From NCBI GenBank assembly GCA_017984435.1, contig JAGNZK010000003.1:1-64000 (forward strand): a stretch of 64,000 bases of DNA, in the 5' to 3' direction. Position 1 is the stretch's first letter; every line of letters begins with the position of its first letter. The notes beneath the pieces are model-generated. The model was not told where the DNA came from and did no database searches. It saw only the letters and a program-made list of their open reading frames with translations. The position numbers and the translations under genes were made by a program. The stretch is from Nitrosomonas sp. (GTDB taxonomy: Bacteria; Pseudomonadota; Gammaproteobacteria; Burkholderiales; Nitrosomonadaceae). Of this stretch, positions 4,752-28,573 are shown in pieces.

Positions 4752-6224
4752 ATGTATACCTATAGATACATTGCTCTTATCGTACTTACTCTACTGAGTA
4801 TTTCCGGTTGTGCTGTACAGCCGATAGTTGTTACAGATGATGAAAATAAATCCCGAATTACTCAAGATCTTGGTGTCTTAGAAAAAAATCATGATGCAAT
4901 TAATGGCCCAATCTCTTTAGAAGAAGCTACTGCACGAGCGCTAAAAAATAATTTGGAATTACAAATCGAGTTAACCCAAAAAGCCTTGGCTCAGAAACAA
5001 TTAAATTTGAAAAGCTATGACATGCTGCCAAAACTTGTTATCGATTTAAACTATTCCTCACGGAGCAATTATAGCGGCGCAATTAGCCGATCACTAATTA
5101 CTGGAAGAAGAACTTTGGAATCATCAACATCATCTGAGAAAGATGTGTTTGCGTCGATGCTAGGGGTGACCTGGAATATCCTCGATTTTGGTGTTTCTTA
5201 TTATCGGGCACAGCAAGCAGCTGATAATGTATTGATTCAAGAAGAACAAAAACGCTCCTCGATCAACCGGATAGTGCAAGAAGTACGCTCCGCATATTGG
5301 CGTGCCGTGAGTTATCAGCGACTCATTTCGCGCATGCTAGGTTTAAAAGCTGAGATTCGGGAATCGCTGAGTCAGATTGATCAAATGGATGTGGAGCAGT
5401 TGAATAATCCTAAGATCAATTTTACTTATAAGCGGGATCTGCTAGGTATCGAGCGGGAAATTGGATTGTTGCAAAGAAATTTATCGGTTGCGAAATCGCA
5501 ATTGGCCGTACTGATGAGTATCAGGCCGGGTATGGATTTTTCATTGGTTATTCCAGAGAGAGGAGAATTTGCCAATAAGATCAACCTTGAAGTAGAAGAA
5601 ATGGAACAAATTGCATTGGAAAGTCGCCCAGAATTGCGCGAGTTGTTTTATAAGAAACGTGCTAACGCAAAAGAAACACGGGCTGCTATTTTACAAATGC
5701 TTCCGGGTATCGAGATGAGTTCGCGGTATAACTACAACTCCAACAGTTTTCTCTTTAATGGTGATTGGTTAAGTTTAGGATCACAACTGTCATGGAATTT
5801 GATCAGCATTATTTCCATGCCGGCAAGATTGGATGAACTGGATACTAAAGAAAAGTTATTGGATGTCGAACGTTTAGCTATGAGTATGGCGGTATTGGCG
5901 CAAGTTCATGTCAGTTTGGCGCAGTTTGGTAATCTCAGTGAAGAATATCGGGTGTCCTATAATTTTTATTTGATGCAAAAGAAAATTATAGAGCAATCAC
6001 GGATAGAAGCTCAGTTAGGCAAAATTAGTCGGCATATATTGATTCGAGAAGAGCTGAATACACTATTAGCGGAAGCACGTACCGACAGTATTTATTCTGA
6101 TCTTGAGAACGCTTATGCAGGAATCTATGTTTCATTAGGTTTGGATCCAATTCCAGGCGATCTTGATATAAAAGATTTATCTGAGTTAACTGAAAAATTA
6201 ACTAGTCACTGGCAAAGGCATTGA
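4752..6224 (+). CDS. TolC-like outer membrane efflux lipoprotein
   Basis: A 490-residue member of the outer-membrane efflux (TolC/OEP) family, forming the outer-membrane channel of a tripartite exporter. A lipoprotein signal with LLSISGC puts the lipidated Cys near residue 20. The repeated long helices of the family follow, with ISLEEATARALKNNLELQIE near residue 54 and a second half beginning near LEVEEMEQIALESRPELRE. The length fits the family. It is the first gene of the export locus and lies 44 bases before the giant surface-protein gene, so co-transcription is likely. I see no strong ribosome-binding site. The long AT-rich leader (4575-4751) probably holds the locus promoter. The family call is firm; its place in this export apparatus follows from context. 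Confidence 0.88.
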   Translation: MYTYRYIALIVLTLLSISGCAVQPIVVTDDENKSRITQDLGVLEKNHDAINGPISLEEATARALKNNLELQIELTQKALAQKQLNLKSYDMLPKLVIDLNYSSRSNYSGAISRSLITGRRTLESSTSSEKDVFASMLGVTWNILDFGVSYYRAQQAADNVLIQEEQKRSSINRIVQEVRSAYWRAVSYQRLISRMLGLKAEIRESLSQIDQMDVEQLNNPKINFTYKRDLLGIEREIGLLQRNLSVAKSQLAVLMSIRPGMDFSLVIPERGEFANKINLEVEEMEQIALESRPELRELFYKKRANAKETRAAILQMLPGIEMSSRYNYNSNSFLFNGDWLSLGSQLSWNLISIISMPARLDELDTKEKLLDVERLAMSMAVLAQVHVSLAQFGNLSEEYRVSYNFYLMQKKIIEQSRIEAQLGKISRHILIREELNTLLAEARTDSIYSDLENAYAGIYVSLGLDPIPGDLDIKDLSELTEKLTSHWQRH

Positions 6225-6268
6225 TATTTTTAGAAACTAATTTTTCCAGCAAGTAGGTCTAAGCATCT

Positions 6269-9200
6269 ATGGCTAAGTCAAAGAAACCGATCAATTCTAT
6301 AATTAATAATGGAATCGGTGCAAAAAAAAGTTCATTAGGTATGCTGTGGCAGCTTGAACAGAGAATGATGTTTGATGGTGCCGCTATTAGCACAGCTTCA
6401 GAAGTTATCGACTCAACCCTGTTGACACAGTACGAATCTGGCATAACAAGAAATAACCTGACAGAAACCTCTTTTGTCGAAACCAATGGTCAATTAGTTA
6501 CCGCTAATTTATCTGTGCAAACGGATAGTAGGAATCCATTATTTCAGAATAGTAGCTTGGAAGAATGGCTGACTGATTATACGGTTCCCACTGGCTCTAT
6601 CAATGAAATTGTATTTGTCGACACCCGTGTTGAGGGTTATGAAAAAATCCTGGCTGGAATCGATAGTAATGTTCAAGTTATTTTATTGGATCAGCATCGG
6701 GATGGCATAGAGCAAATCGCAACCTATTTGTCGCAGCAACCACCCATGGATTCAATACACATTATTTCTCATGGTAGTTCGGGTTCTTTGCAGCTGGGCA
6801 CCGGCACCCTCACCCACGACTCGATGACGGGGCGGTACGCCGACGAACTGGTCACCATCCAGCAGGCGTTGTCTGAACAAGCGGATCTTCTCGTCTATGG
6901 CTGCAACTTTGCCGAAGGTGATGTGGGGCAGGAGGCGGTCACCCTACTGGGTCAACTGACCGGGGCCGATGTGACAGTCGGCACAGACTCCACAGAGCTA
7001 GATGACGAGAGTGTGCCGGTCACTCCGACTACGTCAGGAGTAGTCGATCGCACGGAACTCGTCTTCGTAGACGGCAATGTTGCCGAGTACGGGTTGCTGG
7101 TGAGTCGTATTCAAGCGCAATCGGCCCACGTTGAGGTCATCGTACTCGATCCATATGCGGACGGCGTACAGGCGATCACCGCGGCACTATCCCGATACGA
7201 GCCTGGGACCGTGGATGCTGTGCATATCCTCTCCCATGGCGTTGAAGGCGGTATCCAAGTCGGAAGCACGTGGATCAATCAGTTTTCACTCCAGTGGCAA
7301 GCGGACATCATCGCCTCATGGGGGCAGGCAATGACGGCCTCCGCCGATATCATGCTCTGGGGTTGCGATGTAGCCGCCACCGCCGAGGGCCAAACCTTTG
7401 TGAACCGCTTGGCTGAAATCACCGGTGCCGATGTTGCGGCCAGCACCGATGCCACGGGGCATGCGCTAGTCGGGGGGGATTGGCAGCTGGAGTATGCAAC
7501 CGCGCACATCGAAGCCCAGGAATATAGCGCCGGCGAACTGAGCGATTGGGTCGATGTCCTGGCGATCACCGCCAACGGAACGGCCACCTCATCTCAAGCG
7601 ACAAGTGTCACCAGCTTGACGTGGTCGCACACGGTCGCCACCGGTTCCAACCGTGCACTCTTCGTCACGCTTGCCATAGACGGACTCGGTCCGGGTGTGA
7701 ACGGGGTGACATATGGAGGAGTCGCTCTGACTCAGGTGGGTCGTACCACCGGCAATCACGCAGTCGAAATCTGGCGCCTGCTCAGCCCTGCCGCCGGTTC
7801 CGCAGATGTGGTGGTAAGCCTTGGGGGGGCGACAGACATCAAGGGCGGGGCCGTGACGTATAACGGGGTCGAACAGACCACGCCTACCGGCACCTACGCC
7901 GGTGCCAGTGGAACAGGGACGACAGCCAGTGTGGACGTGTCCAGTGCGACCGGTGGATTGGTGCTCGATATCACGAACTGGGACAACAATCCCAGCGGGT
8001 ATTCAACAGGAACGGGGCAATCTGACATATGGAACCTCACTAACTCGGCCCATCGTGCGGTGTCGACGACGGAAGCCGGCGCCGCAACGGTCACGATGAG
8101 CAGCACCGTTTCTGCTTCCAATCAATGGGAAATCGGTGCCGTATCTATCAACGCCGCAGAAAACGTCTCGCCGACGCTTACGGATACAACCTTGTCTATC
8201 ACGGTAGCGGAGGATGCGGGGGCGCCGAGTGGTGCCGTAGGCTCTCTCATCAGCACGTTCACCGGAGGCATCACCGATGCAGATACCGGCGCGTCGAAGG
8301 GCATTGCCATTACCGGGACCAACGAGACGAATGGGAACTGGTATTACACGATCAACGGCGGCAGCACCTGGACGGCCGTCGGATCAGTGAGCAACAGCTC
8401 GGCGCTCTTGCTGGCGGATAATGGCAGCACGCGCCTGTATTTTTCGCCGAGCGCTGATTACAACGGGACGGTCAGTAATGGGATCACGTTCCGCGCCTGG
8501 GATCAGACTAGTGACAGCGCGGGCACGAAGGTGAGTACGGCAAGCAGTGGAGGCACGACTGCCTTCTCCAGCGCCACCGATACTGTGGATGTAAGCGTGA
8601 CCGCCGTCAACGATGTGCCGATCAATGTCGTTCCTGCTGCGCAGAGTACGAACGAGGATACGAACCTGGTTTTCTCCTCCGGCAATGGCAATCAAATTTC
8701 GATCACGGATCCTGACTCGAGCGGGGCCAGCTTTGAAGTCACGATCTCGGTGACCAACGGCAGTCTCACGGTGGCTGGCACGACCGGCTTGACCTTTGTG
8801 TCGGGCGATGGGACAGCCGATCCGTCCATGACCATTCGTGGCACTGTGACGAATATTAACAACGCTCTGAATGGAGTGAGTTTTGTTCCCACAAACAACT
8901 ACAACGGTGGTGCGGTGCTGACCATCGCCACGACGGATTCTACGTTGGTGAATTTGAATCTCGACGTGAATCTTCAAGCACGGTACACCTTCGAGGGAAA
9001 TGCCGACGATGTCGCAGCGGGGCTAGTACAGAACGGCACGCTTACCAATGGTGCATCCATTGTCACGGATGGAACGCGCGGTCAGGTGGTGAGTCTCGAC
9101 GGGGCGAATGACTATGTGCAAATCAATGGGGTATTTGGAGGGCCCACTAATGTAACGCTGGTTGCCTGGGTGAAGCTTAATTCAGGGTCAGCGAATGCGG

Positions 9201-12200
9201 ATGTACTCTCCCTTGGCGACAATGTTGTGCTCCGTCTCGATACGGCAGGAGGGGTGCGCGGCTTTATTTATAATGGCAGTACATTCGACGTTGTGTCATC
9301 GAATGTTTTTCTTGCGGGTACAGGGTGGCACCATGTGGCCTATGTCGTCGACAGCAGTGGCGGGACAAGCACGCTGTACATCGATGGAGTTCAACAAGGC
9401 TCAGTCACGCTGACCCAGCCGGTGATCTACAACCAGTCTGGTATGACGACGATCGGGGTGAACGGATGGGGGACTGGACATGAGCTTAATGGGATGGTTG
9501 ATGATGCACGGATCTTTGACCGTGCGCTAACGTTAGCTGAAATTTCTGCACTCGCCTCGGACCTCAGTCTAACGGATACAGACACCGTGGTGATTACCGT
9601 AACGGCGGTCAATGATGCGCCGGTGTTGGCGGATACAGCGTTGACCCTGACCGTGGCGGAAGATGCCGGTGCTCCAAACGGGGCGGTTGGCTCATTGATC
9701 AGTACCTTCACCGGCGGCATCGCCGATGTGGACAGCGGCGCCTCGAAGGGCCTGGCGATTACGGGGACCGACGAAACAAACGGGACCTGGTACTACACGA
9801 CGAATGGGGGCACGACCTGGACGACGGTCGGCGCGGTCAGCAACACCTCGGCGCTGTTGTTGGCGGATAACGGGAGTACCCGGCTGTATTTTTCCCCGAG
9901 CGCGAATTACAACGGCACGAGCAGCGTGGCTTTGACGGTACGGGCCTGGGATCAGATGAGCGGCACAGCCGGGACCAAGGTCGATGCCGGCACGAATGGC
10001 GGTACCACGGCCTTCTCCAGTGAGACGGATACCGTGGATGTGACGGTGACAGCAGTCAACGATGCGCCGAGCTCCAGCGGTAGTTCAGTGAGTGGCGTCG
10101 AGAACACACCGTTGGTGTTTACTTGGGCGCAGTTCAACGTGTCGGACGTTGATTCACCCATCGATGCGAACAGTGCCCTCCGTATTCAATCGTTACCAGC
10201 ACTAGGTAGCCTGCAAGTGTCAGTGGATGGAGATTGGAAATCGGTTGCGCTGAATCAAATTATCACTAAAGCCACCATCGATTCCGGTTACCTTCGCTAT
10301 GTGCCCGTGGCGAACGAGAGCGGCTATTCTGGTTACGCGACCCCTGGCATTGGCAATCAGTATAATGATTATGCGCAATTCAATTTCTCACCGGTTCAGA
10401 CGACACCGATTACGATCGCCAATCCCGATGCTGAAGCCGACGCTCTTTCCGAAGGCGCGCGGCAGCAGAGTGTGGCCACGTGGACAACGAATACTGCCCC
10501 ACCGTATATCGCAGGAGTAGAGAATCCGACCGTTGCCCAATTTGGCGTGGACAATGACACAACGTTTTTTGTTGAATCCGGTGGCACCTGGCTGGGAAAG
10601 ATCTTGTACACCGCCTTCGACTCGGCCAACGACTATTCGCTGAATCTCAGCGTCGGTTGGGAGAACGGCCTTCCTGCGAGTCAATATCACATCGAACTCT
10701 GGGGTGGCGGGTATGGGCTGGGCATCCTGGATCAGACGCAGGTGACCGAGGTTCAGGGCTCATTGGTACAAGCCAATTTGCAGGTGAACGGTGCCGAGCA
10801 TGTGGCACAGGACGGGCAATGGATAGGGTTTTGGATGATAGGTAACAATGGAAAGACCAATTTCGATAACCTCCAATTCGTTTCCTATAATCGAAGCACG
10901 GGCATTGGGGCGACAGCTACGATGACGATCGACATCACGCCTGCCAACGACGCGCCGGTGTTGGCGGATACGGCGTTGACGCTGACTGTGGCGGAAGATG
11001 CCGGGGCACCAAGCGGAGCAGTCGGAAGTTTAGTGAGTGCCTTCACGGGTGGCATCACCGATGCGGACAGCGGCGCGTCGAAGGGCCTGGCGATTACGGG
11101 GACCGACGAAACAAACGGGACCTGGTACTACACGACAAATGGCGGCAGTACCTGGACGGCGGTCGGCGCGGTCAGCAACACCTCGGCACTGTTGCTGGCG
11201 GATAACGGGAGTACGCGTCTGTATTTTTCTCCGAGCGCGAATTACAACGGCACGAGCAGCGTGGCTTTGACGGTACGGGCCTGGGATCAAACGAGTGGGA
11301 CGGCGGGCACGAAGGTGAGTACGGCAAGCAGTGGAGGCATGACCGCCTTCTCCAGCGCCATCGACATCGTGGATGTAAGCGTGACTGCCGTCAACGATGC
11401 GCCGACGGATATCATTTTTGATACGCCGATTACGCTGAATAATGGCGTAACGGACGGCTACATCGGCGTCACACAATTTAATTATGGACAACCAGCCAGC
11501 ACACAACTCACCTTTGAGATCAGTTTTTCGGCAACATCCATTCCTTCTGGTTCGTTAGAACTGGTGTCCTATGCCCTTTCTTCTGGCACCAGCAATGACA
11601 TCAACATCTGGATTGATCCATCCGGGGATCTGTGGTTTCGGCTCAGTTCTGGGGCTGCGACACCGCTCGGATTCGACGCAAGAGCCTTGATCGATGGCAC
11701 CCAACATCAATTGTCGATCACGTGGGATGGCGCCACCGGCGATACCCGGTTTTATGCCGATGGCAGTCAGATTGGAGTAGATACGTATAGGGTTGGGAGC
11801 AGCGTTCCTTGGGCATCCGGTGCTGAGACCAGCATGCTGATGTTTGGGCAGGACCAAGATGCCGTGGGGGGGGGATTCGACAGCACCCAGATCTTTACCG
11901 GAAATATTTTCGAAGTGCGGATGTTTACGGATGTGCGCACGGCTCCTGAAATCGCCGCCAATGTGAATACCTATTTATCAAATCCCAGTGCTGATCCTAA
12001 TTTGCTCGCTAATTGGCGCATGGTGAACGATGGCTCCGGCCTCATCAGCGACTTGACCGGCAATCATGATCTCACACTTTACAATGCCGCCAGCTTCAAC
12101 TCGACGTTTTCTGTGGCGGAGAATGCATCGAATGGGACGCGTATCGCCTCAGCGGTCGACGTCACTGATGCCGATATTAGCGACAGCCACACCTTTAGCC

Positions 12201-15200
12201 TCACGAATGATGCGGGCGGGCGGTTTACAATCGACAGCAGCACGGGTGTGATTACGGTGGCCAACGGCAGTCTGTTGAATTACGAAAGTGCGACGAGCCA
12301 TACCGTGACCGTGCGCGCCACGGATTCAGGGGGGCTCACCTACGACGAGACCATCACGATCAACCTGACCAATGTCAACGATGCCCCGACAGGGGCCGAT
12401 GCGACGATCGCGATCAATGAAGACACATCACACACTCTGACCACGGCCAACTTCGGGTTCAGCGACGTGGATGTGGGCGATAGCCTCAGTGCGGTGAGGA
12501 TCGATACGCTCCCTAGTACGGGAAGCTTGACTCTCTCCGGAGTAGCGGTGACCGCTGGACAGGTCATCACCGTCACCGATATCACGGTGGGCAACTTGGT
12601 CTTCACCCCTGTCGCTAATGCCAACGGGACGGGCTATAGCAGCTTTACCTTCTCTGTGCGGGACAGCTCCAACGCGTACGACCCGGTTCCTAACACTCTC
12701 ACCATCGATGTCACGGCGGTCAACGATGCGCCGACATTCAGTGTAGGCGATGGGCAGGCTCTGACCAGCTTCGGGTCGGGATGGGAGTTTGGGAAAGAAA
12801 CCGTCATCCAGCCAGATGGCAAGATCTTGGTCGGCGGCTATAGCGATAGCGGAGGCACCGACGACTTTTTCCTCGCTCGGTATAACGCCGACGGCACGTT
12901 GGATACCAGTTTCGGTGGCGGGGATGGAGTGGCGTTTGCTGGGATCGTCGGTCGAGTGGAGACCATGGTCCTCCAAGCTGACGGCAAGGTGGTGCTGTCT
13001 GGGTATACGATCACTGGCGGTTACCAAGTGTGTTTGGTGCGGTTCAATGTCGATGGCACGCTGGACACGAGTTTTGGTGGCGGCGATGGTGTCGCGTCCT
13101 CGGGGGTGTATGGCAGCGCGCAAGATGTGGCGCTTCAGACGGATGGCAAATTTCTGGTCGCGGCCGATCTGTCGAATAGCAACTTCAATCTGATGCGGTT
13201 CAATAGCGACGGATCGCTCGATACCAGCTTCGGCGGCGGCTCAGGGTACGTCAGCACAGACCTCGCCGGGAGCAACGATCGTGCTGACAGCCTCACCATC
13301 CAATCTGACGGAAAGGTGCTGCTGTCGGGGTTTGGGTTCAATGGGATCAGTTTTGATTTTGCGTTGGTTCGGTACAACACGGACGGGTCATTGGATACGA
13401 GTTTCAACGGCACAGGGAAAGTGCTGACCGATTTCGGCGCTGATAGCAGCGATATGGGCAACGAAGTGCGAATGCAGGCCGATGGGAAAATCGTTGTGGC
13501 CGGGTGGAGCGATACTGGCGGCACCAATGATTTTGCGATTGCCCGCTACAACGCCAATGGGACGCTGGACACCGGCTTCGGGACCGGCGGCAAAGTGACT
13601 ATCAATCTGGGGGGCAGTGACCTAGCCGAAGGGCTTACGATCCAGGCTGATGGCAAGATTCTCGTGACGGGTACAGCGGGGATCAACGGGGGCGATATCG
13701 GTTTGGTGCGGTTCAATACGGACGGCACGCTGGACACGATGTTCGGCGGCGGGGATGGGATTATCACGTCGGATTACAGCGGCGCCAGCGATGATCGGGG
13801 CTACAGCGTGGCGGTCCAAGCCAATGGCGAGATTGTGGTGTCGGGCGCCACCAAGGTCGGCGCCCTTGGTGAGTACAACGTTGCGCTGAATCGCTATAGC
13901 AGTACCGGGTCGCTGGACACCACGCTTGATTCCATCAACACGCTGAACGGGATGCCGACCTACACCGATGGCGGGTCTCCTGTGGTGCTCGATGCCGACG
14001 TGCAGATCTTTGACGCCGAGCTGTCGGCCCTGAACAACTTTAGCGGTGCCACCCTCACTCTTGTTCGCAACGGAGGGGCCAATGCCGAGGATGTCTTCTC
14101 TGCGACTGGTACCCTTAGCCTAAGCAGCGGCAACGTGGTCGTGAGCGGCACCACCATCGGGACCTACACCAATAGCGGCGGCCAGCTGGCTCTCACATTT
14201 AATAACAGCGCGACGAATGTGCTCGTCAACTCGGCGATGCAACAAATCGTCTACAGCAACAGCAGCGACGCATCGCCGACGAGTGTGCAGATCAACTGGA
14301 CCTTCAACGACGGCAATAGCGGTACGCAGGGAGCTGGCGGGGCCTTGCAGGCCACCGGCAGCGTCACTGTGAACATCATCGCGGTGAACAACGCGCCGAC
14401 GATCACGAACCTCAGTGGGGACAGCCTGACATATAGCGAAGGGAACGGAGCTGTCGTGATCGAGCAGGGAGCCAATGCGCTAGTGGCGGATGTGGATTCG
14501 AGCAACCTGGATGCCGGCACGTTGACCATCTCCATTCCAACGGGCGGCGACAGCGCCGAGGATGTGCTGAGTATTAGGAATCAAGGCATTGGCGCGGGAC
14601 AGATCGGCGTGAGCGGTAGCAATGTGACCTACGAAGGCGTGACCATTGGGACTGTGATCGGTGGCAGCAACGGGAACGCGCTCGTCATCACGTTGAACGG
14701 CAGCGCCACTCCTGCGGTTGTAACGGCGCTGGTTAAGAACATCACCTATGAGAACACGGATACGAGTGCTCCCACGACCGGCGCCCGCACGGTGCGCTAT
14801 GTCCTCACCGATGGAGATGGCGGGATCAGTGCCAACTATGACACTATCGTTACGGTCAGCGAGGCCAATGACGGGCCGGTGAACAGCGTGCCGGGGGCGC
14901 AGAGCGTGGCCGAGGACACCGCGCTCACTCTTAGCGGAATCTCGGTTACGGATGTGGACGGCAATTTGAGCAGCGTGCAGCTGGCGGTGGGTAACGGAAT
15001 CTTGAATGTTACATTGGCCGGTGGGGCGACGATCAGCGCGGGGAGCAACAGCACGAGCACCCTGACGCTCAGCGGCAACCAAGCGGATATCAATGCGACC
15101 CTCGCTACCCTAATCTATCAAGGCACTGCCGATTTCAATGGAGCCGATACGCTTACGGTCACCAGCACCGATAGCAACGCGGTAACCGACGTGGATACCG

Positions 15201-16354
15201 TGGCGATTACCGTGATCGCTGTCAACGATGTGCCGTTGAACACGGTGCCGGGAGAAAAAACTGCGGCAGAAAATGGTTTACTCGCACTAAATGGCATTTC
15301 AGTTAATGACGTTGATGGCAATTTGCTATCGGTGCAATTGCAAGTGACTAACGGCTCGTTGATCGTTACATTATTTGGAACAGCCAGTATCAGCAATGGT
15401 ATGAATGGCAGCAACACGCTAACATTGTCAGGTTCGCAAGCGGATATTAATAGCACCTTATCTTCACTTTATTATCAAGCCAATGCGGGATTTTCTGGTT
15501 TGGAGAAATTAACGATTTCGAGTATTGATAGTAATGGTGCATTCGATATTGATTTTATTGATATTTCAATTCCATTACCTGTTCCAGTTCCACCGCCACC
15601 GCCACCGCCACCGCCACCGCCACCGCCACCGCCTGAACCTGAACCATCACCTATTTTGGTTCCACCGCCTGTGCCTGAACCAATGCTTCCGACAATTATT
15701 TCTGCGGGACCGAATTTATCCCCAGCAATTCTTCCCATATCAACCTCTGGAATGGTTGGCAACGCGCAGTTGAGTACCTCCTTACCTCAAATGGTGCCAT
15801 CATTTGATTCTACTTATTTCATTGACGGGCAAACATCCGATACAGAAACTTCTTTAAGTGAACCGGCGAATCACCTTGGAATCAATCGCAGTATTTCTCA
15901 GAGTAGAGAAGCCGATAGTGCATTAATAAATAAATCTGCACGATTTGTTACTGAAAATGAGCTAAGTTTGCAGATTATTACTGAGACTGCTCTTTCCTCT
16001 CTACCTTCAAGTGAAATTGATTACACTCAAGAAAATAAAAATTATTGGATTGAAGTGACGCAATTAGATGATGAGTCTCAAAAAAACCTGAGAGATGAAG
16101 AATTAACCTTACAGATTGTTACAGTAGCAGGTTTATCAATGACAGCTCTGGCAGCTTCATGGTTGACACGTACAGGTGCTTTTTTTGTTGGCTTATTTTC
16201 TGTATTTCCAATTGTTAAGAGTATTGACCCAATGGCCATTCTGGATCAGTCAACAAATTCTGATAAACAGGAAGCTGAAGTAGAAGAAGCTTTATTAGCA
16301 AAGAAATTGGCTTTGTATGAAGAAATTTTTAATAAATCAAATCCAAAACAATAA
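6269..16354 (+). CDS. giant DUF4347 surface/adhesin protein, 3361 residues
   Basis: Probable secreted or surface-anchored adhesin. Domains in order: a LEPR-type motif LEQRMMFDGAA at residue 29; two DUF4347 domains (about 114-243 and 263-416); a beta-sandwich region (431-631); three copies of a ~148-residue cadherin-like repeat ending VNDAP or VNDVP (about 637, 1119 and 1565); a LamG-like domain (897-1096) and a second one after residue 1712; a cadherin-like domain (from ~1942); seven delta-60 repeats (~2160-2551); further calx/cadherin-like repeats; a polyproline linker (~3105-3141); and a hydrophobic segment (~3281-3316) before a short charged tail. I see no RTX nonapeptides. Codons 1 to ~170 and the last ~370 are AT-rich like the neighbours, while the core is GC-rich. 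It lies between the TolC-like gene and a diguanylate cyclase that starts five bases after its stop. Confidence 0.85.
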   Translation: MAKSKKPINSIINNGIGAKKSSLGMLWQLEQRMMFDGAAISTASEVIDSTLLTQYESGITRNNLTETSFVETNGQLVTANLSVQTDSRNPLFQNSSLEEWLTDYTVPTGSINEIVFVDTRVEGYEKILAGIDSNVQVILLDQHRDGIEQIATYLSQQPPMDSIHIISHGSSGSLQLGTGTLTHDSMTGRYADELVTIQQALSEQADLLVYGCNFAEGDVGQEAVTLLGQLTGADVTVGTDSTELDDESVPVTPTTSGVVDRTELVFVDGNVAEYGLLVSRIQAQSAHVEVIVLDPYADGVQAITAALSRYEPGTVDAVHILSHGVEGGIQVGSTWINQFSLQWQADIIASWGQAMTASADIMLWGCDVAATAEGQTFVNRLAEITGADVAASTDATGHALVGGDWQLEYATAHIEAQEYSAGELSDWVDVLAITANGTATSSQATSVTSLTWSHTVATGSNRALFVTLAIDGLGPGVNGVTYGGVALTQVGRTTGNHAVEIWRLLSPAAGSADVVVSLGGATDIKGGAVTYNGVEQTTPTGTYAGASGTGTTASVDVSSATGGLVLDITNWDNNPSGYSTGTGQSDIWNLTNSAHRAVSTTEAGAATVTMSSTVSASNQWEIGAVSINAAENVSPTLTDTTLSITVAEDAGAPSGAVGSLISTFTGGITDADTGASKGIAITGTNETNGNWYYTINGGSTWTAVGSVSNSSALLLADNGSTRLYFSPSADYNGTVSNGITFRAWDQTSDSAGTKVSTASSGGTTAFSSATDTVDVSVTAVNDVPINVVPAAQSTNEDTNLVFSSGNGNQISITDPDSSGASFEVTISVTNGSLTVAGTTGLTFVSGDGTADPSMTIRGTVTNINNALNGVSFVPTNNYNGGAVLTIATTDSTLVNLNLDVNLQARYTFEGNADDVAAGLVQNGTLTNGASIVTDGTRGQVVSLDGANDYVQINGVFGGPTNVTLVAWVKLNSGSANADVLSLGDNVVLRLDTAGGVRGFIYNGSTFDVVSSNVFLAGTGWHHVAYVVDSSGGTSTLYIDGVQQGSVTLTQPVIYNQSGMTTIGVNGWGTGHELNGMVDDARIFDRALTLAEISALASDLSLTDTDTVVITVTAVNDAPVLADTALTLTVAEDAGAPNGAVGSLISTFTGGIADVDSGASKGLAITGTDETNGTWYYTTNGGTTWTTVGAVSNTSALLLADNGSTRLYFSPSANYNGTSSVALTVRAWDQMSGTAGTKVDAGTNGGTTAFSSETDTVDVTVTAVNDAPSSSGSSVSGVENTPLVFTWAQFNVSDVDSPIDANSALRIQSLPALGSLQVSVDGDWKSVALNQIITKATIDSGYLRYVPVANESGYSGYATPGIGNQYNDYAQFNFSPVQTTPITIANPDAEADALSEGARQQSVATWTTNTAPPYIAGVENPTVAQFGVDNDTTFFVESGGTWLGKILYTAFDSANDYSLNLSVGWENGLPASQYHIELWGGGYGLGILDQTQVTEVQGSLVQANLQVNGAEHVAQDGQWIGFWMIGNNGKTNFDNLQFVSYNRSTGIGATATMTIDITPANDAPVLADTALTLTVAEDAGAPSGAVGSLVSAFTGGITDADSGASKGLAITGTDETNGTWYYTTNGGSTWTAVGAVSNTSALLLADNGSTRLYFSPSANYNGTSSVALTVRAWDQTSGTAGTKVSTASSGGMTAFSSAIDIVDVSVTAVNDAPTDIIFDTPITLNNGVTDGYIGVTQFNYGQPASTQLTFEISFSATSIPSGSLELVSYALSSGTSNDINIWIDPSGDLWFRLSSGAATPLGFDARALIDGTQHQLSITWDGATGDTRFYADGSQIGVDTYRVGSSVPWASGAETSMLMFGQDQDAVGGGFDSTQIFTGNIFEVRMFTDVRTAPEIAANVNTYLSNPSADPNLLANWRMVNDGSGLISDLTGNHDLTLYNAASFNSTFSVAENASNGTRIASAVDVTDADISDSHTFSLTNDAGGRFTIDSSTGVITVANGSLLNYESATSHTVTVRATDSGGLTYDETITINLTNVNDAPTGADATIAINEDTSHTLTTANFGFSDVDVGDSLSAVRIDTLPSTGSLTLSGVAVTAGQVITVTDITVGNLVFTPVANANGTGYSSFTFSVRDSSNAYDPVPNTLTIDVTAVNDAPTFSVGDGQALTSFGSGWEFGKETVIQPDGKILVGGYSDSGGTDDFFLARYNADGTLDTSFGGGDGVAFAGIVGRVETMVLQADGKVVLSGYTITGGYQVCLVRFNVDGTLDTSFGGGDGVASSGVYGSAQDVALQTDGKFLVAADLSNSNFNLMRFNSDGSLDTSFGGGSGYVSTDLAGSNDRADSLTIQSDGKVLLSGFGFNGISFDFALVRYNTDGSLDTSFNGTGKVLTDFGADSSDMGNEVRMQADGKIVVAGWSDTGGTNDFAIARYNANGTLDTGFGTGGKVTINLGGSDLAEGLTIQADGKILVTGTAGINGGDIGLVRFNTDGTLDTMFGGGDGIITSDYSGASDDRGYSVAVQANGEIVVSGATKVGALGEYNVALNRYSSTGSLDTTLDSINTLNGMPTYTDGGSPVVLDADVQIFDAELSALNNFSGATLTLVRNGGANAEDVFSATGTLSLSSGNVVVSGTTIGTYTNSGGQLALTFNNSATNVLVNSAMQQIVYSNSSDASPTSVQINWTFNDGNSGTQGAGGALQATGSVTVNIIAVNNAPTITNLSGDSLTYSEGNGAVVIEQGANALVADVDSSNLDAGTLTISIPTGGDSAEDVLSIRNQGIGAGQIGVSGSNVTYEGVTIGTVIGGSNGNALVITLNGSATPAVVTALVKNITYENTDTSAPTTGARTVRYVLTDGDGGISANYDTIVTVSEANDGPVNSVPGAQSVAEDTALTLSGISVTDVDGNLSSVQLAVGNGILNVTLAGGATISAGSNSTSTLTLSGNQADINATLATLIYQGTADFNGADTLTVTSTDSNAVTDVDTVAITVIAVNDVPLNTVPGEKTAAENGLLALNGISVNDVDGNLLSVQLQVTNGSLIVTLFGTASISNGMNGSNTLTLSGSQADINSTLSSLYYQANAGFSGLEKLTISSIDSNGAFDIDFIDISIPLPVPVPPPPPPPPPPPPPPPEPEPSPILVPPPVPEPMLPTIISAGPNLSPAILPISTSGMVGNAQLSTSLPQMVPSFDSTYFIDGQTSDTETSLSEPANHLGINRSISQSREADSALINKSARFVTENELSLQIITETALSSLPSSEIDYTQENKNYWIEVTQLDDESQKNLRDEELTLQIVTVAGLSMTALAASWLTRTGAFFVGLFSVFPIVKSIDPMAILDQSTNSDKQEAEVEEALLAKKLALYEEIFNKSNPKQ
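8176..11402 (+). repeat. three copies of a ~445-bp cadherin-like repeat
   Basis: Copies lie at about 8176-8622, 9622-10068 and 10960-11402, inside the giant gene. Copies two and three are very close at the DNA level, for example in the stretches coding SALLLADNGSTRLYFSPSAN. Copy one is more diverged. Each begins near VAEDAGAP and ends at VNDAP or VNDVP. They are direct repeats able to recombine and change protein length. Confidence 0.85.
12781..13920 (+). repeat. array of seven delta-60 repeats
   Basis: Seven tandem units of about 54-60 residues share the pattern QADGKI-VV-G, ARYN-DGTLDTSFG and GGDG. This matches the uncharacterised delta-60 repeat family, which is thought to form beta-propeller-like folds. 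Unit boundaries are clear in the translation; the seventh unit is degenerate (YSSTGSLDTTLD). Confidence 0.85.
15590..15633 (+). repeat. CCACCG hexanucleotide tract coding polyproline
   Basis: About seven tandem CCACCG units code for a run of prolines in the giant protein's linker, just before the C-terminal region. Gain or loss of a unit would keep the frame and change the linker by two residues. It looks like a flexible or stiff stalk segment. Confidence 0.9.
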
Positions 16355-16359
16355 AAGAA

Positions 16360-17895
16360 ATGAGAAAAGCAATTATCCATACTACAACTCGAATTAGTGT
16401 AGCTTTAGTTGCTGTATTAATGAGTGTACTACTAATGGGCGAACTACTTGGTATCGTCCCTGACAAATCACAATTTTTACTTGAAGCACGTCAGTCAATT
16501 TCTCGAACAGTTGCTGTACAGTTTGCACTAGCAGCGGAACGGAACGATTTCAAGCAAATTAAAGCTGGATTGAATTTAATTAAGCAAGTTAATCCTGAGA
16601 TAAAATCTGCCGCAATCCGAAGACCGGATGGCACCTACTTTGCAACGGTTGGTGATCATGAAGGAAATTGGAGTAGCGTGACGAGTCACGAAAATTCACC
16701 AGATAAGATACAAGTTTCAATCATGCAGCACAATCAAGTTTGGGGGGTCATTGAGCTAAGTTTTGTATCGGAATCCGATCTAATCGATTGGAGCGGTATA
16801 AAAAACTCATTCTGGGGCATGTTGATTTATATTGCGATTGCATGCTTTATCGGTTATTTATTTTTCTTGAGAAGAATTCTAAAACACCTTGATCCATCTA
16901 AAGTTGTTCCAGAGCGAGTAAAACGAGCATTTGATACTTTGTCAGAAGGCATTCTCATTTTAAGTGAAAATGGGCAGATTGTTTTAGCAAATAAAGCCTT
17001 CTGTGAACAAATTAACTTGCATATTACAATGCTTCTTGGTCGAGAAGCTTCTGAGTTAGACTGGAGTATGGGTTTTAAAGATCAAGCACTAGAAAACCGG
17101 ACACTACCCTGGCTAACGACACTACGAAATGGGAAGAGCAGGAGTAACGAACGACTCATGTATCAATTTGGGGGTGTCAATCCACATATCTTTAATGTCA
17201 ATTGCACAGAAATATTGGGTGATGATAACGTGCGTAAAGGTGTATTAGTAACGTTTGATGATATTACTGAGCTGGAATATAAAAATCTTGAACTCGAATC
17301 TATGCTCAAAATTAATGAGCAATCAATGCAAGAGATATCTCGCCAAAATAATGAATTGAAAATTCTTGCAGAGAATGATCCGATGACGCGCTGTTATAAT
17401 CGTAGAGCATTTCACGCTTATGGTGACAAAATTTTTCAAGATGCTACCGGTCATCACAAGAATTTGGTTTGTATTATGCTCGATATTGATCATTTTAAAT
17501 CGGTTAATGATACTTATGGGCACCAAATTGGTGATTCTGTGATTAAGTTGGTGGCCAAAATTGCCAAGGAGAATCTTCGAGAAACTGATATTGTTGGACG
17601 TTATGGCGGCGAGGAATTCTGCTTGATGTTGCCAAACATCACTAATGAAATGGCTTTGGAAATAGCAGAAAGACTTCGCCTTAGTGTTGAAAATTCACCT
17701 GATTACAAAGTAATTGGGATTAAACGCGTTACCATTAGTTTAGGCCTGGCATCAATTCAATTTGGAATTAATAACCCGAGTGAACTGATTAATCTGGCCG
17801 ACAAAGCACTATATCTTGCTAAGAATAATGGACGAAATCGTGTTGTAGTATGGAATGGCGAACTCGATTCTAAGTCACAAGCCATTAGTGTGTGA
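16360..17895 (+). CDS. membrane diguanylate cyclase with PAS-like domain
   Basis: A 511-residue GGDEF enzyme making cyclic di-GMP at the inner membrane. A membrane segment lies at residues ~10-33, then a periplasmic sensor region, then a second membrane segment near 150-173. A PAS-like region (FDTLSEGILILSENGQIVLA) and a coiled-coil linker lead to the GGDEF domain, which opens at NDPMTRCYNRRAF. The active-site motif GGEEF (residues 416-420) is intact. RETD (407-410), five residues before it, is a complete inhibitory I-site, so product inhibition is expected. It starts five bases after the giant gene, with an AAAAGAAA leader, so it is almost certainly cotranscribed. Cyclic di-GMP may tune production or retention of the surface protein; that role is inferred. 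Confidence 0.9.
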   Translation: MRKAIIHTTTRISVALVAVLMSVLLMGELLGIVPDKSQFLLEARQSISRTVAVQFALAAERNDFKQIKAGLNLIKQVNPEIKSAAIRRPDGTYFATVGDHEGNWSSVTSHENSPDKIQVSIMQHNQVWGVIELSFVSESDLIDWSGIKNSFWGMLIYIAIACFIGYLFFLRRILKHLDPSKVVPERVKRAFDTLSEGILILSENGQIVLANKAFCEQINLHITMLLGREASELDWSMGFKDQALENRTLPWLTTLRNGKSRSNERLMYQFGGVNPHIFNVNCTEILGDDNVRKGVLVTFDDITELEYKNLELESMLKINEQSMQEISRQNNELKILAENDPMTRCYNRRAFHAYGDKIFQDATGHHKNLVCIMLDIDHFKSVNDTYGHQIGDSVIKLVAKIAKENLRETDIVGRYGGEEFCLMLPNITNEMALEIAERLRLSVENSPDYKVIGIKRVTISLGLASIQFGINNPSELINLADKALYLAKNNGRNRVVVWNGELDSKSQAISV

Positions 17896-18041
17896 GCTTG
17901 GATGAAATAACAAAAAGAAAATAAGATGTAATTAGTGCTTTTTTTGCGGAAGAAATCCGTGAGTTGTTAGGTAAACTGTTTATTATTTTTCCATAAACAG
18001 ATTGCATTTTTGCAGTTAGTTTACTGACATAAGGCTCTAGT
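17896..18041 (+). other. spacer between cyclase and adaptor genes
   Basis: 146 AT-rich bases without an ORF I can support. It is the largest gap within the export locus and may hold a second promoter. No clear terminator hairpin is visible, so read-through from upstream is possible. Confidence 0.4.
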
Positions 18042-19016: not shown

Positions 19017-19019
19017 GCC

Positions 19020-20375
19020 ATGGTAGATAAGCCACAAGGTGAATCTAATCAAACTTTATCAACATTGCTGCAACTCGAATCTGATGCGCGTAGTTCTGTT
19101 GATTCGTTATCACTTCACTACTTTATCGTTAATGAGACCCGGCGACTTATCCATTACCGGTATGCCGTTCTTTTCAAGGCATCTGGATCCAAGAATAGCC
19201 ATTTTGAAGCCATAAGAGCCTCTGGCAGTAACTTAATTGATCGCACAACACCAAAAATTCATTGGATGGAGCAGGTCATTCATTATCTGAGTGAAAGAAA
19301 TAATAAGGAACAACTCGTGAAAGTTGTTCCTGAACAACTTTCTGCAGAGCTTCAACAGGATTGGAAAGATCTATCCTTGCCATATTCTGTATGGGTGTCT
19401 TTACGATTACCATGTGGTTCTGTTATTGGCTCATTGTGGCTTGAGAGAGAGGTGACATGGAATGATGACGAGCTTTTCTTGCTCAAGCGATTAGCTGATA
19501 CTTACGCGCATGCTTGGGGGTACTTCGACAATCTGCAGCAGCGTTTCAAGTCATGGTTTCTGTCACAAAAAATATTGTGGGGAATAATGCTATTTCTGAT
19601 ATTGGCGCTATTGGTTATCCCAGTTCAGAACAGTACATTAGGACCGGTGAAGATTGTAGCCAAAGATCCCTTAGTCATCAGTGCACCTATTGATGGTGTA
19701 ATTGCATCAATTTCGGTTGAACCCAATGAAATGGTCACTCGTGGGCAGCTACTGCTGAGTTATGAAGATACAAATTATCGAAATGAATATGCTATTACAG
19801 AACAATCGCTGGTTGTTGCGCAAGCCGAACTGAAGAAAGCGACACAAGGGGCTTTTGAAGATCCACGAAATAATGCAGAAATAGCGTTGCTTAAAGCAAA
19901 AGTTGATTTAGCGATTATCAAAAGAAACTTTGCTAAAGAAATGCTGGATCACGTGAATATCATTGCAGAGAAAGATGGCTTATTGCTTTTTAACGACAAA
20001 GCAGAATTAATCGGTCGTCCGATTTCTACCGGTGAGAGATTAATGGAAGTCGCCGAAATCGATAAAGTGATGTTACTGATTTACTTGCCGGTTGAAAACA
20101 ATATTGATTTTCGACCGGGTGCCCCAGTAAAAGTTTTTCTGGATGTTAATCCTTTGCACTCAATTGATGCGATAGTAACGTATGCAAGTTATCGTGCAGA
20201 AATCACTCCTGGAGAAATGTTGGCTTATCGCGTAGAGGCCGCAACAATTGAAGAGCTGAGTAATTTAAGAATCGGATGGCAAGGAACTGCAAAAATCTAC
20301 GGCGAGAATGTCAGTTTGTTTTTTTATCTTTTTAAACGCCCGTTGTCTTCAGTACGTCAATATTTAGGCTTCTAA
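19020..20375 (+). CDS. GAF-like domain fused to an HlyD-type adaptor
   Basis: A 451-residue fusion. Residues ~20-170 look like a GAF-type sensor: an LSLHYFIVNETRRLIHYRYA start, VSLRLPCGSVIGSLWLE core and a DDELFLLKRLADTYAHAW helix. A membrane segment follows at about 185-203 (ILWGIMLFLILALLVI). A biotinyl-lipoyl/HlyD region comes next (VISAPIDGVIASISVEPNEM, and later DGLLLFNDKAELIGRPISTG). The topology suggests a cytoplasmic sensor joined to a periplasmic adaptor arm. The gene follows the previous stop by three bases and precedes the M50 gene by three bases, so the three are translated as a unit. The HlyD call is firm. The GAF assignment rests on pattern only. Confidence 0.8.
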   Translation: MVDKPQGESNQTLSTLLQLESDARSSVDSLSLHYFIVNETRRLIHYRYAVLFKASGSKNSHFEAIRASGSNLIDRTTPKIHWMEQVIHYLSERNNKEQLVKVVPEQLSAELQQDWKDLSLPYSVWVSLRLPCGSVIGSLWLEREVTWNDDELFLLKRLADTYAHAWGYFDNLQQRFKSWFLSQKILWGIMLFLILALLVIPVQNSTLGPVKIVAKDPLVISAPIDGVIASISVEPNEMVTRGQLLLSYEDTNYRNEYAITEQSLVVAQAELKKATQGAFEDPRNNAEIALLKAKVDLAIIKRNFAKEMLDHVNIIAEKDGLLLFNDKAELIGRPISTGERLMEVAEIDKVMLLIYLPVENNIDFRPGAPVKVFLDVNPLHSIDAIVTYASYRAEITPGEMLAYRVEAATIEELSNLRIGWQGTAKIYGENVSLFFYLFKRPLSSVRQYLGF

Positions 20376-20378
20376 TAA

Positions 20379-22493
20379 ATGTTTCCAGACGGTGCCCTGG
20401 AATTACCTAAATTACGCGAGGATATCCAAATATCCATCGCATCGAATAGCCATGATGGATCCAGGAATTGGACTATTTATGATCCGATAAATAATCGCTT
20501 TTATCGGGTTGGTGCGCTTGTATATCACATGTTGAGTAATTGGGTGTTGGGAAATAGCCAAGATTTAATTTATCACATCGAATCCCAAACTACATTTTCT
20601 CCTACTCAACAAGATGTATCTGAATTAATCAGTTTTTTGCATACAAATCAATTAACGATTCAATCTTGCTCGCAACCATTTGATTTCTATTTAAGGCAAC
20701 ATCTGGCGTCACATAAGAATCTCTTGCAAAGAATCTTGATTCATTATCTTTTTTTTCGAATACCGCTATTTAAACCAGATGCTTTTCTTAATCGCACATA
20801 TCCTTTCATCAAGAAATTTTATTCAAAAGCATTCATCTATTTTGCTTTATTAGTTGCATTATCAGGTGTTTATTTTGTTTCAAGGCAATGGGATATATTT
20901 GTTAACACATTTTTGTATTTTTTCACTCTTACGGGTGCATTGGTATATCTACTAGCATTGATAGGAACAAAGATTATTCATGAGTTAGGGCATGCGTACA
21001 TGGCAAAACACTATAGGTGCCGGGTTCCAAGCATAGGGATAGCGTTTATGGTCATGATTCCGATGTTGTATAGCGATATGTCCGATACGTGGCGGCTTAA
21101 TGATAAAAAGCAAAGAATACATGTGGCAGCTGCTGGAATCATCAATGAGTTAATACTTGCAGGTATATGCTTATTTGCATGGTCAATTTTACCTGATGGC
21201 ATGCTGCGGAGCGTTTGTTTTATAGTTGCAACGACCAGTATTATTAGTAGCTTGGCAATTAATCTAACGCCGTTCATGCGTTTTGATGGCTATTACATGC
21301 TGTCTGATTGGTGGGGTATCGAAAATCTACAGCAGCGTTCATTTCTCCTGGCGCAATGGAAGTTACGCCAGTTGTTGTTTGGTGGAATCGAAGAAAAACC
21401 CGAGCATTTTTCTCCTGACATGGAATTTAAGCTCATATGTTATGCATGGGCTACCTGGTTTTATCGGTTTCTTCTGTATTTAGGTATTGCCGTACTGGTT
21501 TATGATTTCTTTTTTAAGTTACTAGGGTTGATTCTTTTTATAGTTGAAATATTTTATTTTATTGTGATGCCTGTTTGTAGGGAATTGAAACGATGGTGGT
21601 TATTGAAAAATAAAATTCAGAACAATGTTCGAGTAAAGCTATGGTTTTCTACATTGATCATTATGATCGTGTTGTTGTTTCCTTGGAATTCCCAAATCTA
21701 TTTGCCTGGTATATTAACATCAGCAAATTATGCTTCAATTTACTCACCGGAGCCGGCTCAGATTATTTCAATCGACATTGAGCGTGGACAAAAGGTCGAG
21801 AAAAATCAAGTATTAATGGTGTTGCGGTCACCATTAATCGAGAGTGAGATTAAATTAACGCAGAAACAACTCGCATTACTTAAGCTCAGAGCTGCAAGAG
21901 CAGTAGCAAATCATCAAGATCAAGATGATTTACAGGTAATCTTGGAACAGATCGTATTGGAATCTGGCAAATTGGAAGGCCTTGAGAAGCGGCAAGCCAG
22001 ACTAGTCTTGCGGGCTCCTTTCTCTGGGGTAGTATCAGAGATGGATCCTACTTTAAGAGCACAACAATGGCTAAGTAATGCGACACCAGTTTTTTTTGTT
22101 AATGATTCTGAAATAGCTGAAATGAAAGGTATAGTTTCGGTCGGTGAGTTAAGCAGAATTGGAATTGGTCAAGCAGCAATATTTTATCCTGAGGATCCAC
22201 AAATGCCGAAAGTAACTGCGACTATCAGCAGGATTGATTGGGGTAATATTAAGAATCTAGATTTGACTTACCTTTCCTCTCGGTATGGTGGTGAAGTTGC
22301 TGTGAAAGTTCATAAAAATGGTAAAGCTATTCCCGAGAATGCAGCTTATGCAATCAAGTTGGATAATATTTCATCGGCTGTGCCAAGCCGAGAGATTAGA
22401 GGTAATATATGCGTTGAGGGTCAATCAGTTTTCTTGATTGAAAGGCTGTACGAGCTTGTATTGTCACTCATTATAAGAGAAAGTGGATTTTAA
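20379..22493 (+). CDS. M50 metalloprotease-HlyD fusion, PqqD-like N-terminus
   Basis: A 704-residue polytopic protein. The first ~95 residues (LPKLREDIQI, then WTIYDPINNRFYRVG) resemble PqqD/RRE peptide-binding domains. A multi-span M50 (site-2-protease-like) domain follows, with the zinc motif HELGH at residues 201-205 and the second motif N-T-P ending FDG at 302-304, so the active site looks intact. After a last membrane segment near 421-437 comes a biotinyl-lipoyl/HlyD region (YSPEPAQIISIDIERGQKVE, then LVLRAPFSGVVSEMDP). It may be the inner-membrane core of the export system in place of an ABC transporter; that is inference. Its stop codon directly abuts an IS5 relic, so the extreme C-terminus may have been altered by the insertion. 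Confidence 0.82.
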   Translation: MFPDGALELPKLREDIQISIASNSHDGSRNWTIYDPINNRFYRVGALVYHMLSNWVLGNSQDLIYHIESQTTFSPTQQDVSELISFLHTNQLTIQSCSQPFDFYLRQHLASHKNLLQRILIHYLFFRIPLFKPDAFLNRTYPFIKKFYSKAFIYFALLVALSGVYFVSRQWDIFVNTFLYFFTLTGALVYLLALIGTKIIHELGHAYMAKHYRCRVPSIGIAFMVMIPMLYSDMSDTWRLNDKKQRIHVAAAGIINELILAGICLFAWSILPDGMLRSVCFIVATTSIISSLAINLTPFMRFDGYYMLSDWWGIENLQQRSFLLAQWKLRQLLFGGIEEKPEHFSPDMEFKLICYAWATWFYRFLLYLGIAVLVYDFFFKLLGLILFIVEIFYFIVMPVCRELKRWWLLKNKIQNNVRVKLWFSTLIIMIVLLFPWNSQIYLPGILTSANYASIYSPEPAQIISIDIERGQKVEKNQVLMVLRSPLIESEIKLTQKQLALLKLRAARAVANHQDQDDLQVILEQIVLESGKLEGLEKRQARLVLRAPFSGVVSEMDPTLRAQQWLSNATPVFFVNDSEIAEMKGIVSVGELSRIGIGQAAIFYPEDPQMPKVTATISRIDWGNIKNLDLTYLSSRYGGEVAVKVHKNGKAIPENAAYAIKLDNISSAVPSREIRGNICVEGQSVFLIERLYELVLSLIIRESGF

Positions 22494-26008: not shown

Positions 26009-26254
26009 AACTGTTTACCCATTGGAAGACGAAAAACAGGGGAAACCTCAATTTGGCAAAGGCCGACAAAAAAACTCTCTTTGCTTTGTATCCGAATAAA
26101 TCTATATTTCATATGGTTATGAAAATTTCTTGATGTATCCATAAGGATAATTTATTGAGTACACCACGGTTTATAGTAAACTCTCAATTCACTTGTTAAA
26201 ATTATTAACCTTTTACAAAATAAATCTGATTACATTATTAACTTAGGATCGTTC

Positions 26255-27472: not shown

Positions 27473-27502
27473 GGTTTCTTCAGGATTAATAGCAATTTAG
27501 TC

Positions 27503-27549
27503 ATGCCACTTCCTTGTCGTGAATGATGAGAAAGTGGCACATGTTTTTT
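27503..27549 (+). terminator. rho-independent terminator
   Basis: The arms TGCCACTT and AAGTGGCA (27503-27510 and 27531-27538) pair around a 20-base loop. CATGTTTTTTT follows. It lies 30 bases after the aminotransferase stop codon. Confidence 0.65.
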
Positions 27550-27579
27550 TATTGACCTGTCACGGATAATCCGGTCATT

Positions 27580-28572: not shown

Positions 28573-28573
28573 C

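Follow-up and report, generated by a model that had tools for sequence, protein, structure and literature searches.

How can a protein of several thousand residues leave the cell when the genes around it encode adaptors and an outer membrane channel but no ATP-binding cassette (ABC) transporter? This question is raised by a locus of Nitrosomonas sp. (GenBank assembly GCA_017984435.1, contig JAGNZK010000003.1), which occupies positions 4752-22493 of the 64,000-nucleotide stretch analyzed here, hereafter the window. Six open reading frames (ORFs), all on the + strand, encode a TolC-type outer membrane factor (OMF), a giant protein presumed to be the substrate, a diguanylate cyclase, an HlyD-type adaptor, a GAF-HlyD fusion, and a fusion of an M50 (site-2 protease) domain to HlyD. 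A sequence-only reading had noted these ORFs on one strand, with the last three genes three bases apart, and had proposed a type-I-like export apparatus in which the M50 protein takes the place of the transporter and which is dedicated to one giant DUF4347 substrate. The coordinates first read were borne out, with intergenic gaps of 44, 5, 146, 3, and 3 bases, and no ABC transporter gene was found in the module at 4752-22493. Both components by which type I secretion is otherwise recognized, an HlyD-type adaptor and a TolC-type OMF, are present. The observation is confirmed and is much wider than first stated: dedicated modules that lack an ABC transporter and are tied to a giant protein do exist and are widespread. 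The type-I-like export interpretation is partly supported, and we lean toward the view that the locus belongs to a widespread family that recognizes an N-terminal tag on giant proteins, acts on them proteolytically, and would export them.

Conservation of the M50-HlyD Module

The distribution of the module was assessed in a contig scan covering 84,980 species, each by a single genome, in which an alignment of ten M50-HlyD proteins served as the query. At least 588 stretches encoding such a protein were found, and the best 80 were kept; all counts out of 80 refer to these. They include loci from Pseudomonas, Azospirillum, Nitrosomonas, Nitrospira, Pelagibacteraceae, Pectobacterium, Brenneria, Rhizobium, and others. 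Genes were called as the longest ORF, an approach that led to misreadings in some high-G+C stretches. Upstream of the M50-HlyD gene, 78 of the 80 loci have a GAF-HlyD gene within 800 bases and 76 have it within 57 bases, and 59 of the 78 gaps measure -4 to +6 bases. The gene was missing from L084, which starts at a contig edge, and from a Desulfonema locus (L141), and only a piece of it is present in L085. An HlyD gene is found near M50-HlyD in 77 of the 80. Within the fetched stretches, an OMF gene is visible in 31 loci and a giant bearing the N-terminal tag described below in 47. Among the 33 loci with no visible tag, 23 contain a long repeat-rich ORF that starts within 100 bases of the cut edge; one of these was traced further and carries the tag. 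The six loci whose titles name Nitrospira, Nitrospirae, or Nitrospirales (L079, L080, L081, L084, L087, and L112) are all tagged.

ABC genes near these loci were sought by motif pattern only, and by this means none of the 80 loci showed an ABC ATPase ORF between -2.7 and +2.1 kb relative to the M50 start; 24 have one somewhere within about 10 kb.

A Tag at the N Terminus of the Giant Proteins

The 48 giants examined that adjoin the module start with the motif LE-x-R-x-x-F-D-(G/A)-A, its leucine lying at residue 7 to 79. Six residues (L, E, R, F, D, and A) do not vary among 24 aligned tags (that of the window and 23 others); in a SAR11 tag found later, L replaces F. The motif resembles the NCBI LEPR-XLL domain (NF012209), which 18 of the 24 tags match at E ≤ 1. 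The tag of the window scored 14.3 bits against a cut-off of 17 and is thus not assigned to LEPR-XLL. Among eight tags scored with this model, four pass (L086, L087, L112, and L082), three, including that of the window, fall below the cut-off, and one is unlisted.

No Sec-like hydrophobic N terminus is evident on the window giant as judged by hydropathy alone, the peak being 1.03 as compared with 2.42 for the OMF and 2.20 for the HlyD adaptor, and the middle value for the start regions of 47 related giants is 1.31. RTX repeats, a frequent but not universal trait of type I substrates, were also sought in the window giant, and the pattern gave no matches.

DUF4347 follows the tag in 33 of the 48 tagged giants by default phmmer and in all 48 with the filters off. 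A cysteine is conserved in 54 of 54 aligned domains and a histidine in 50. The sole match to the DUF4347 region of the giant in a PDB sequence search was weak (9qpe_G, E = 0.026), the chain being named a DUF4347 protein. A paper carrying the entry code 9qpe presents Tce1 and Tce2 as putative cysteine proteases in which a His-Cys pair is conserved (PMC13323088). We infer that chain 9qpe_G is Tce1; self-processing of the giant by DUF4347 is a fair guess, no more.

DUF4347 was considered as the defining mark of the substrate and rejected. The genome of the window holds five further DUF4347 ORFs, all tag-free and starting with the domain itself; RTX repeats occur in three of them, a contig end truncates a fourth, and the fifth is short. 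DUF4347 alone therefore does not define the substrate. Of the proposed dedication to one giant DUF4347 protein, the tie to a giant stands, and the conserved sequence points to the N-terminal LE-x-R tag, not DUF4347 as such, as the predicted mark.

The giant of the window ends in a hydrophobic segment that is under the hydropathy threshold, whereas the equivalent segment is over it in several Nitrosomonas and Nitrospira relatives. No such segment was found in the Pseudomonas, Azospirillum, and Pelagibacter giants compared. Cleavage of a C-terminal membrane segment by the M50 protein was discarded as a general function, since most giants compared have no such segment. By eye, the C termini of giants without a hydrophobic end show a loose helix-like pattern, F-x-x-Q-L followed by L-x-A-L.

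Co-occurrence of Tag and M50-HlyD Protein

A set of 349 Pseudomonadota genomes was searched with the M50-HlyD alignment and the tag alignment. M50-HlyD proteins of the window lineage (type A) were assigned at a best E below 1e-150, those of a sister lineage (type B) were split off at 1e-70, and tags were accepted at E ≤ 0.01; 80 of the 167 matched genomes, with a best match weaker than about 1e-70, were dropped as adaptor-only. The splits at 1e-150 and 1e-70, and the level of 0.003 applied to NF012209 below, were chosen after the values had been seen. The tag model was trained on giants adjoining such modules, whereas the NCBI model NF012209 was not.

Type-A M50-HlyD is present in 75 of the 349 genomes, the tag in 76, and both in 72, counts that are not independent because the genomes are related. 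At least one tagged genome was found in every one of the 26 families that have type A. Among 101 near relatives, type A was found in 14 and the tag in 12, all of them within the 14; in the two untagged relatives (G014 and G030) the M50 gene sits on contigs of 3.4 and 5.6 kb. In the ten type-A genomes of one or two contigs, every one of 13 type-A genes has a tag 2.0-17.1 kb away.

The M50-HlyD Protein

The histidine, glutamate, and histidine of the HExxH motif, together with Asp303, are invariant in 43 of 43 and, in a second alignment, 17 of 17 M50-HlyD sequences. With these ligands placed in membrane helices and PF02163 over its cut-off, the protein qualifies as an M50 site-2 protease. Weak profile matches were obtained to the MJ0392 protease (3b4r, E = 6.7e-4) and RseP (7w6x, E = 0.0036), and the best NCBIfam match is the daptide protease NF041824 (E = 1.8e-47; 162.3 bits, under the cut-off of 300).

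Upstream of the protease lies a domain resembling PqqD, the recognition element (RRE) of pathways for ribosomally synthesized and post-translationally modified peptides (RiPPs). Alignment to a PqqD set with hhalign gave a probability of 86.8 for the window lineage and 96.8 for type B, and the two N termini matched one another at 96.0, as compared with at most 0.43 for six unrelated control pairs. The predicted topology, strand-strand-strand-helix-helix-helix, is that of a PqqD/RRE domain. PF05402 is over its cut-off in seven type-B ORFs, all with HExxH in frame, and is unlisted for the three window-type N termini scanned. A VIA structure comparison listed the adaptor domain alone (residues 431-687; an adaptor fold with hairpin), and the absence of the RRE-like and M50 parts from that listing says nothing against them.

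A hydropathy scan predicted six membrane segments in the M50 protein. It had been called the only polytopic inner membrane component of the locus; this holds among the three adaptor-bearing proteins, whereas the cyclase shows two segments. Nitrosomonas sp. RBC090 is the closest named relative among the matches listed, its M50 protein being 99% identical.

A Sister Lineage with a SecA-like ATPase

Type-B M50-HlyD proteins have about 715 residues and 20-21% identity to the window protein, and are likewise preceded by a GAF-HlyD gene. Only type B is present in 12 of the 349 genomes, none of which has a window-type tag. NF012209 matched 91 genomes at E ≤ 0.1, and 73 of these hold type A or B. The same is true of 47 of the 49 genomes matched at E ≤ 0.003 (G309 and G375 hold neither) and of 39 of the 40 matched at E ≤ 0.001. 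All 12 B-only genomes matched at 0.003 and 11 at 0.001, the match in G387 lying in a frame of just 144 residues. Each M50 lineage therefore appears to have its own tag variant. Twelve of the 14 strongest NF012209 matches lie in open frames of 4,161-19,427 residues and two in frames of 144 and 159.

A SecA-like ORF is found near the M50-HlyD gene in 17 of 20 type-B stretches, one match being weak. The stretches without it are L202, in which the M50 gene is at the stretch end, L067, with 1.6 kb remaining, and L201. SecA_DEAD, SecA P-loop, and preprotein-binding domains were identified in nine of ten of these ORFs scanned, and L198 gave a weak SecA_DEAD match only. The wing-scaffold, a domain of SecA, was listed in none of the ten, in a scan made without a canonical SecA control. 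Residues 72-612 of the L196 protein align to solved SecA, the match ending at residue 553 of 778 (E = 5e-125). The presence of this ATPase beside the type-B M50 gene raises the possibility of a SecA-type motor for the family.

None of the 12 type-B stretches examined had an ORF tagged as an ABC ATPase. OEP genes occur in the type-B loci L200 and L206, and several type-B giants carry RTX repeats. Genes for SapC adjoin the giant or M50 gene in some type-B loci (L195:11202-12047 and L197:12896-13675), that of L195 lying between M50-HlyD and the SecA-like ORF.

ABC Exporters Elsewhere in Module-bearing Genomes

Forty module-bearing genome handles were searched for three curated type I secretion ABC families; two of them (G429 and G448) give identical rows and are probably one genome. 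No such exporter was over a cut-off in ten: G104, G116, G123, G164, G182, G310, G394, G444, G445, and G446. Long ABC exporters below the cut-off are present in G116 (572 bits; cut-off 693) and G182 (437 bits; cut-off 725), so that eight of 40 is the safer figure. Scores in these eight fall well short of the cut-offs; in G104, G123, G310, and G394, for instance, TIGR03375 gave 294-311 bits where 693 are required. The same four genomes are listed as 100% complete and G164 as 99%, whereas G444-G446, Pelagibacteraceae (SAR11) of 1.1-1.3 Mb, have no listed completeness, and the absence there is the weaker evidence. The operon of G444, from a 1.3-Mb SAR11 genome, starts with an 834-residue OEP protein and a tagged giant (LEQRIMLDGAG at its start; 3261 residues by coordinates), followed by HlyD, GAF-HlyD, and M50-HlyD. 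An ABC exporter that always accompanies the module, which the sequence-only reading had named as counterevidence, was thus not found in this search of three curated families.

Other Features of the Locus

The features are collected in Table 1. Pfam assigned OEP to gene 1, PAS-GGDEF to gene 3, HlyD to genes 4-6, and Peptidase_M50 with HlyD_3 to gene 6; the giant has two copies of DUF4347 followed by DUF5122, LamG-type, and cadherin-type repeats. The GAF assignment of gene 5 is under the gathering score (E = 0.0093; 16.9 versus 22.4 bits) and over it in both type-B homologues scanned. The giant gene has a G+C content of 55% versus 38-41% in its operon mates. The cyclase is found mainly in Nitrosomonas loci; L079 has one too, and at L201 a PAS-GGDEF cyclase (L201:753-2261) adjoins the type-B giant, recalling the type-A operon of the window.

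To the left of the module lie genes for a 3-hydroxyacyl-CoA dehydrogenase and an NMT1-like protein, and to the right those for a zinc-type alcohol dehydrogenase, an rve integrase, and polysaccharide synthesis, the integrase ORF and polysaccharide genes (Glycos_transf_4, Polysacc_synt_2) occupying 25319-30457 of the window.

Table 1. Positions of features in the window and in related loci
Feature	Position	Strand	Basis
TolC-type OMF, probable lipoprotein	4752..6224	+	PF02321 E=1.6e-33; lipobox LSISGC by eye
Giant surface protein, 3361 residues, presumed substrate	6269..16354	+	Pfam, hydropathy, RTX-pattern scan
N-terminal tag LEQRMMFDGA, residues 29-38 of giant	6353..6382	+	Alignment with 23 other tags
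DUF4347 copy 1, conserved His and Cys	6593..7054	+	PF14252, alignment
DUF4347 copy 2, conserved His and Cys	7058..7558	+	Pfam, alignment
CCACCG tandem repeat (perfect), coding for proline-rich linker before hydrophobic C terminus of giant	15590..15633	+	
C-terminal hydrophobic segment of giant, residues 3279-3325	16103..16243	+	
Diguanylate cyclase, PAS-GGDEF, GGEEF intact	16360..17895	+	Pfam
HlyD-type adaptor, single N-terminal membrane segment	18042..19016	+	Pfam, hydropathy
GAF-HlyD fusion adaptor, single membrane segment	19020..20375	+	Pfam, hydropathy
PqqD/RRE-like - M50 (site-2 protease) - HlyD fusion	20379..22493	+	Pfam, profiles, predicted structure
PqqD/RRE-like domain, residues 17-92 of M50 protein	20427..20654	+	hhalign, predicted topology
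HExxH zinc motif, residues 201-205 of M50 protein	20979..20993	+	Alignment
Second zinc-ligand Asp, D303 in FDGY, of M50 protein	21285..21287	+	Alignment
Adaptor domain with alpha-hairpin, residues 437-682 of M50 protein	21687..22424	+	
Tag-free DUF4347 ORFs	L044-L049 (contigs 13, 25, 76 of the window's genome)		
SAR11 full module and tagged giant	L227:11448-19000 with L091		
SecA-like ORFs, mostly about 660 residues	L195:12066-14048, L196:11731-13746, L203:12855-14864, and 14 more type-B stretches		

Discussion

The mechanism that we consider for the family would begin in the cytoplasm with binding of the LE-x-R tag by the RRE-like domain of the M50-HlyD protein, followed by cleavage at or near the tag by the M50 center. 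The three different HlyD-type adaptors and the TolC-like protein would form the conduit for the chain across the envelope. In type B, the SecA-like ATPase whose gene adjoins that of the M50 protein would drive the step; for the window lineage, a motor would have to come from outside the locus, with housekeeping SecA as a first guess and the proton-motive force as the alternative. The tandem DUF4347, with its conserved histidine and cysteine, may afterward act as a processing enzyme on the giant that carries it, and in Nitrosomonas the cyclase would link the system to cyclic di-GMP (c-di-GMP). The M50 part itself may not conduct the chain and may serve only to recognize and cleave the tag. A precedent for a larger role is EpeP, an M50 protein thought to perform both cleavage and export (PMC10885120). 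The full form of the proposal, a new secretion class found from Nitrosomonas to SAR11 in which giants captured through LE-x-R by the RRE are cleaved by the M50 center and driven by a SecA-derived motor (local in type B, in trans here) through a three-adaptor/TolC conduit with neither SecYEG nor ABC, is put forward tentatively.

Several observations weigh against recognition and export by the module. M50 proteins are not known to act as protein channels. In B. subtilis, EpeX production was not fully abolished by loss of EpeP (PMC10885120). The pairing of tag and protease is imperfect: type A occurs without the tag in three genomes (G102, G228, and G300), and the tag without type A in four, of which G131, G338, and G363 are weak (E of 5.6e-4 or worse) and G286 (E of 2.2e-10) is 57% complete. 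An orphan tag is present in G116 (contig 1, 963270) in a 213-residue open frame far from the M50-HlyD genes, and in the near relative G053 the tag is ~263 kb from the M50 gene, across contig ends. Several genomes have four to seven tags (seven in G141, for example), and the pairing is therefore by presence and not copy for copy. A fairly hydrophobic stretch lies near the start of two of the 47 giants, L082 (1.81) and L112 (1.79), and no SecA-like ORF was found in 92 type-A stretches, the window included, some of which share genomes. LEPR-XLL giants can carry RTX repeats and so may not all avoid classical type I secretion. A type I ABC exporter is over a cut-off in 30 of the 40 genome handles (17, 23, and 6 by family), and an HlyB-size ABC ORF lies 6.6-9.1 kb upstream in four Pseudomonas loci (L101, L123, L136, and L144).

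The last two observations lend themselves to the explanation that a classical ABC exporter encoded elsewhere performs the inner membrane step and that the module replaces the adaptor and outer membrane parts only. In the genome of the window, contig 11 does carry a PrtD-type ABC gene, over the cut-off and adjoining HlyD and OEP genes. The ten handles with no exporter over a cut-off, eight of them far below it and three of these SAR11, speak against this explanation, as does the fact that the module supplies its own adaptors and OMF, and we regard it as improbable. A better case can be made for passage of the giant across the inner membrane through SecYEG and SecA, with the M50-HlyD set acting later as tag peptidase, docking platform, and outer membrane route. 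M50 proteins classically cleave membrane-inserted substrates, type-A stretches have no local motor, and in type B it is a SecA-like ORF that adjoins the M50 gene in those 17 of 20 stretches. Such a route is nonetheless rather unlikely in our view: the window giant has no Sec-like hydrophobic N terminus, and the nine clear SecA-like ORFs, for which no wing-scaffold is listed and of which that of L196 matches solved SecA only up to about residue 553 of 778, may not show the usual docking on SecY.

The M50 protein might instead be a regulator or release protease that, by a logic like that of LapD and LapG, trims or releases a giant whose export follows another route. The cyclase in the operon and the hydrophobic C termini of Nitrosomonas and Nitrospira giants fit such a role; yet most loci have neither feature while the M50-adaptor unit is constant, and an adaptor arm and an RRE-like domain are not obviously needed for release. 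This is the least probable of the explanations considered.

Recognition and proteolytic export of tagged giants, the reading that we prefer, has partial parallels in several known systems. The module resembles type I secretion (HlyB-HlyD-TolC, PrtDEF) in setting HlyD-type adaptors and a TolC-type OMF beside a large repeat protein, but it has no ABC exporter, an M50 protein instead, an N-terminal tag, and three adaptors. LapA-type anchored adhesins likewise combine a giant repeat adhesin, a TolC-like pore, and a c-di-GMP enzyme encoded nearby; here, the M50 protein and tag are present instead of a LapB-type ABC transporter. The M50 leader peptidases of RiPP pathways (EpeP; daptide NF041824) also link an M50 protein to an N-terminally marked ribosomal substrate, whereas the window M50 protein adds an adaptor domain and has as its partners an OMF and a protein thousands of residues long. 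Peptidase-containing ABC transporters of bacteriocins join leader recognition, leader cleavage, and export in one machine. The same combination is proposed here, but with a metalloprotease and an RRE-like domain and no ABC. Like LEPR-XLL (NF012209), the tag marks the N terminus of very large proteins, although that of the window is under the cut-off.

In the passages of earlier papers that were consulted, LEPR-XLL comes up in connection with a Vibrio giant that has RTX, for which no export partner is named (PMC10868602); some genes for DDxP giants are described as unlinked to type I secretion genes and their secretion as very unpredictable (PMC7730722); and HlyD is not mentioned in the part seen of PMC13252029. 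No paper linking M50-HlyD, GAF-HlyD, and LEPR or DUF4347 proteins was found in the open literature, as far as its accessible parts go, most subscription papers lying outside that scope. The gene set is widespread and apparently undescribed as a system, the individual domain families all being known.

If the proposed mechanism is correct, many giant surface proteins of Pseudomonadota and Nitrospirota, with open frames of up to 19,427 residues, would exit outside the numbered secretion systems. The LEPR-XLL tag and the tagged DUF4347 proteins would gain a function, and SecA paralogues with no listed wing-scaffold domain would be accounted for. Leader-peptide recognition would extend from small RiPPs to giant proteins, and surface display would be predicted to be lost when a single membrane protease gene is deleted.

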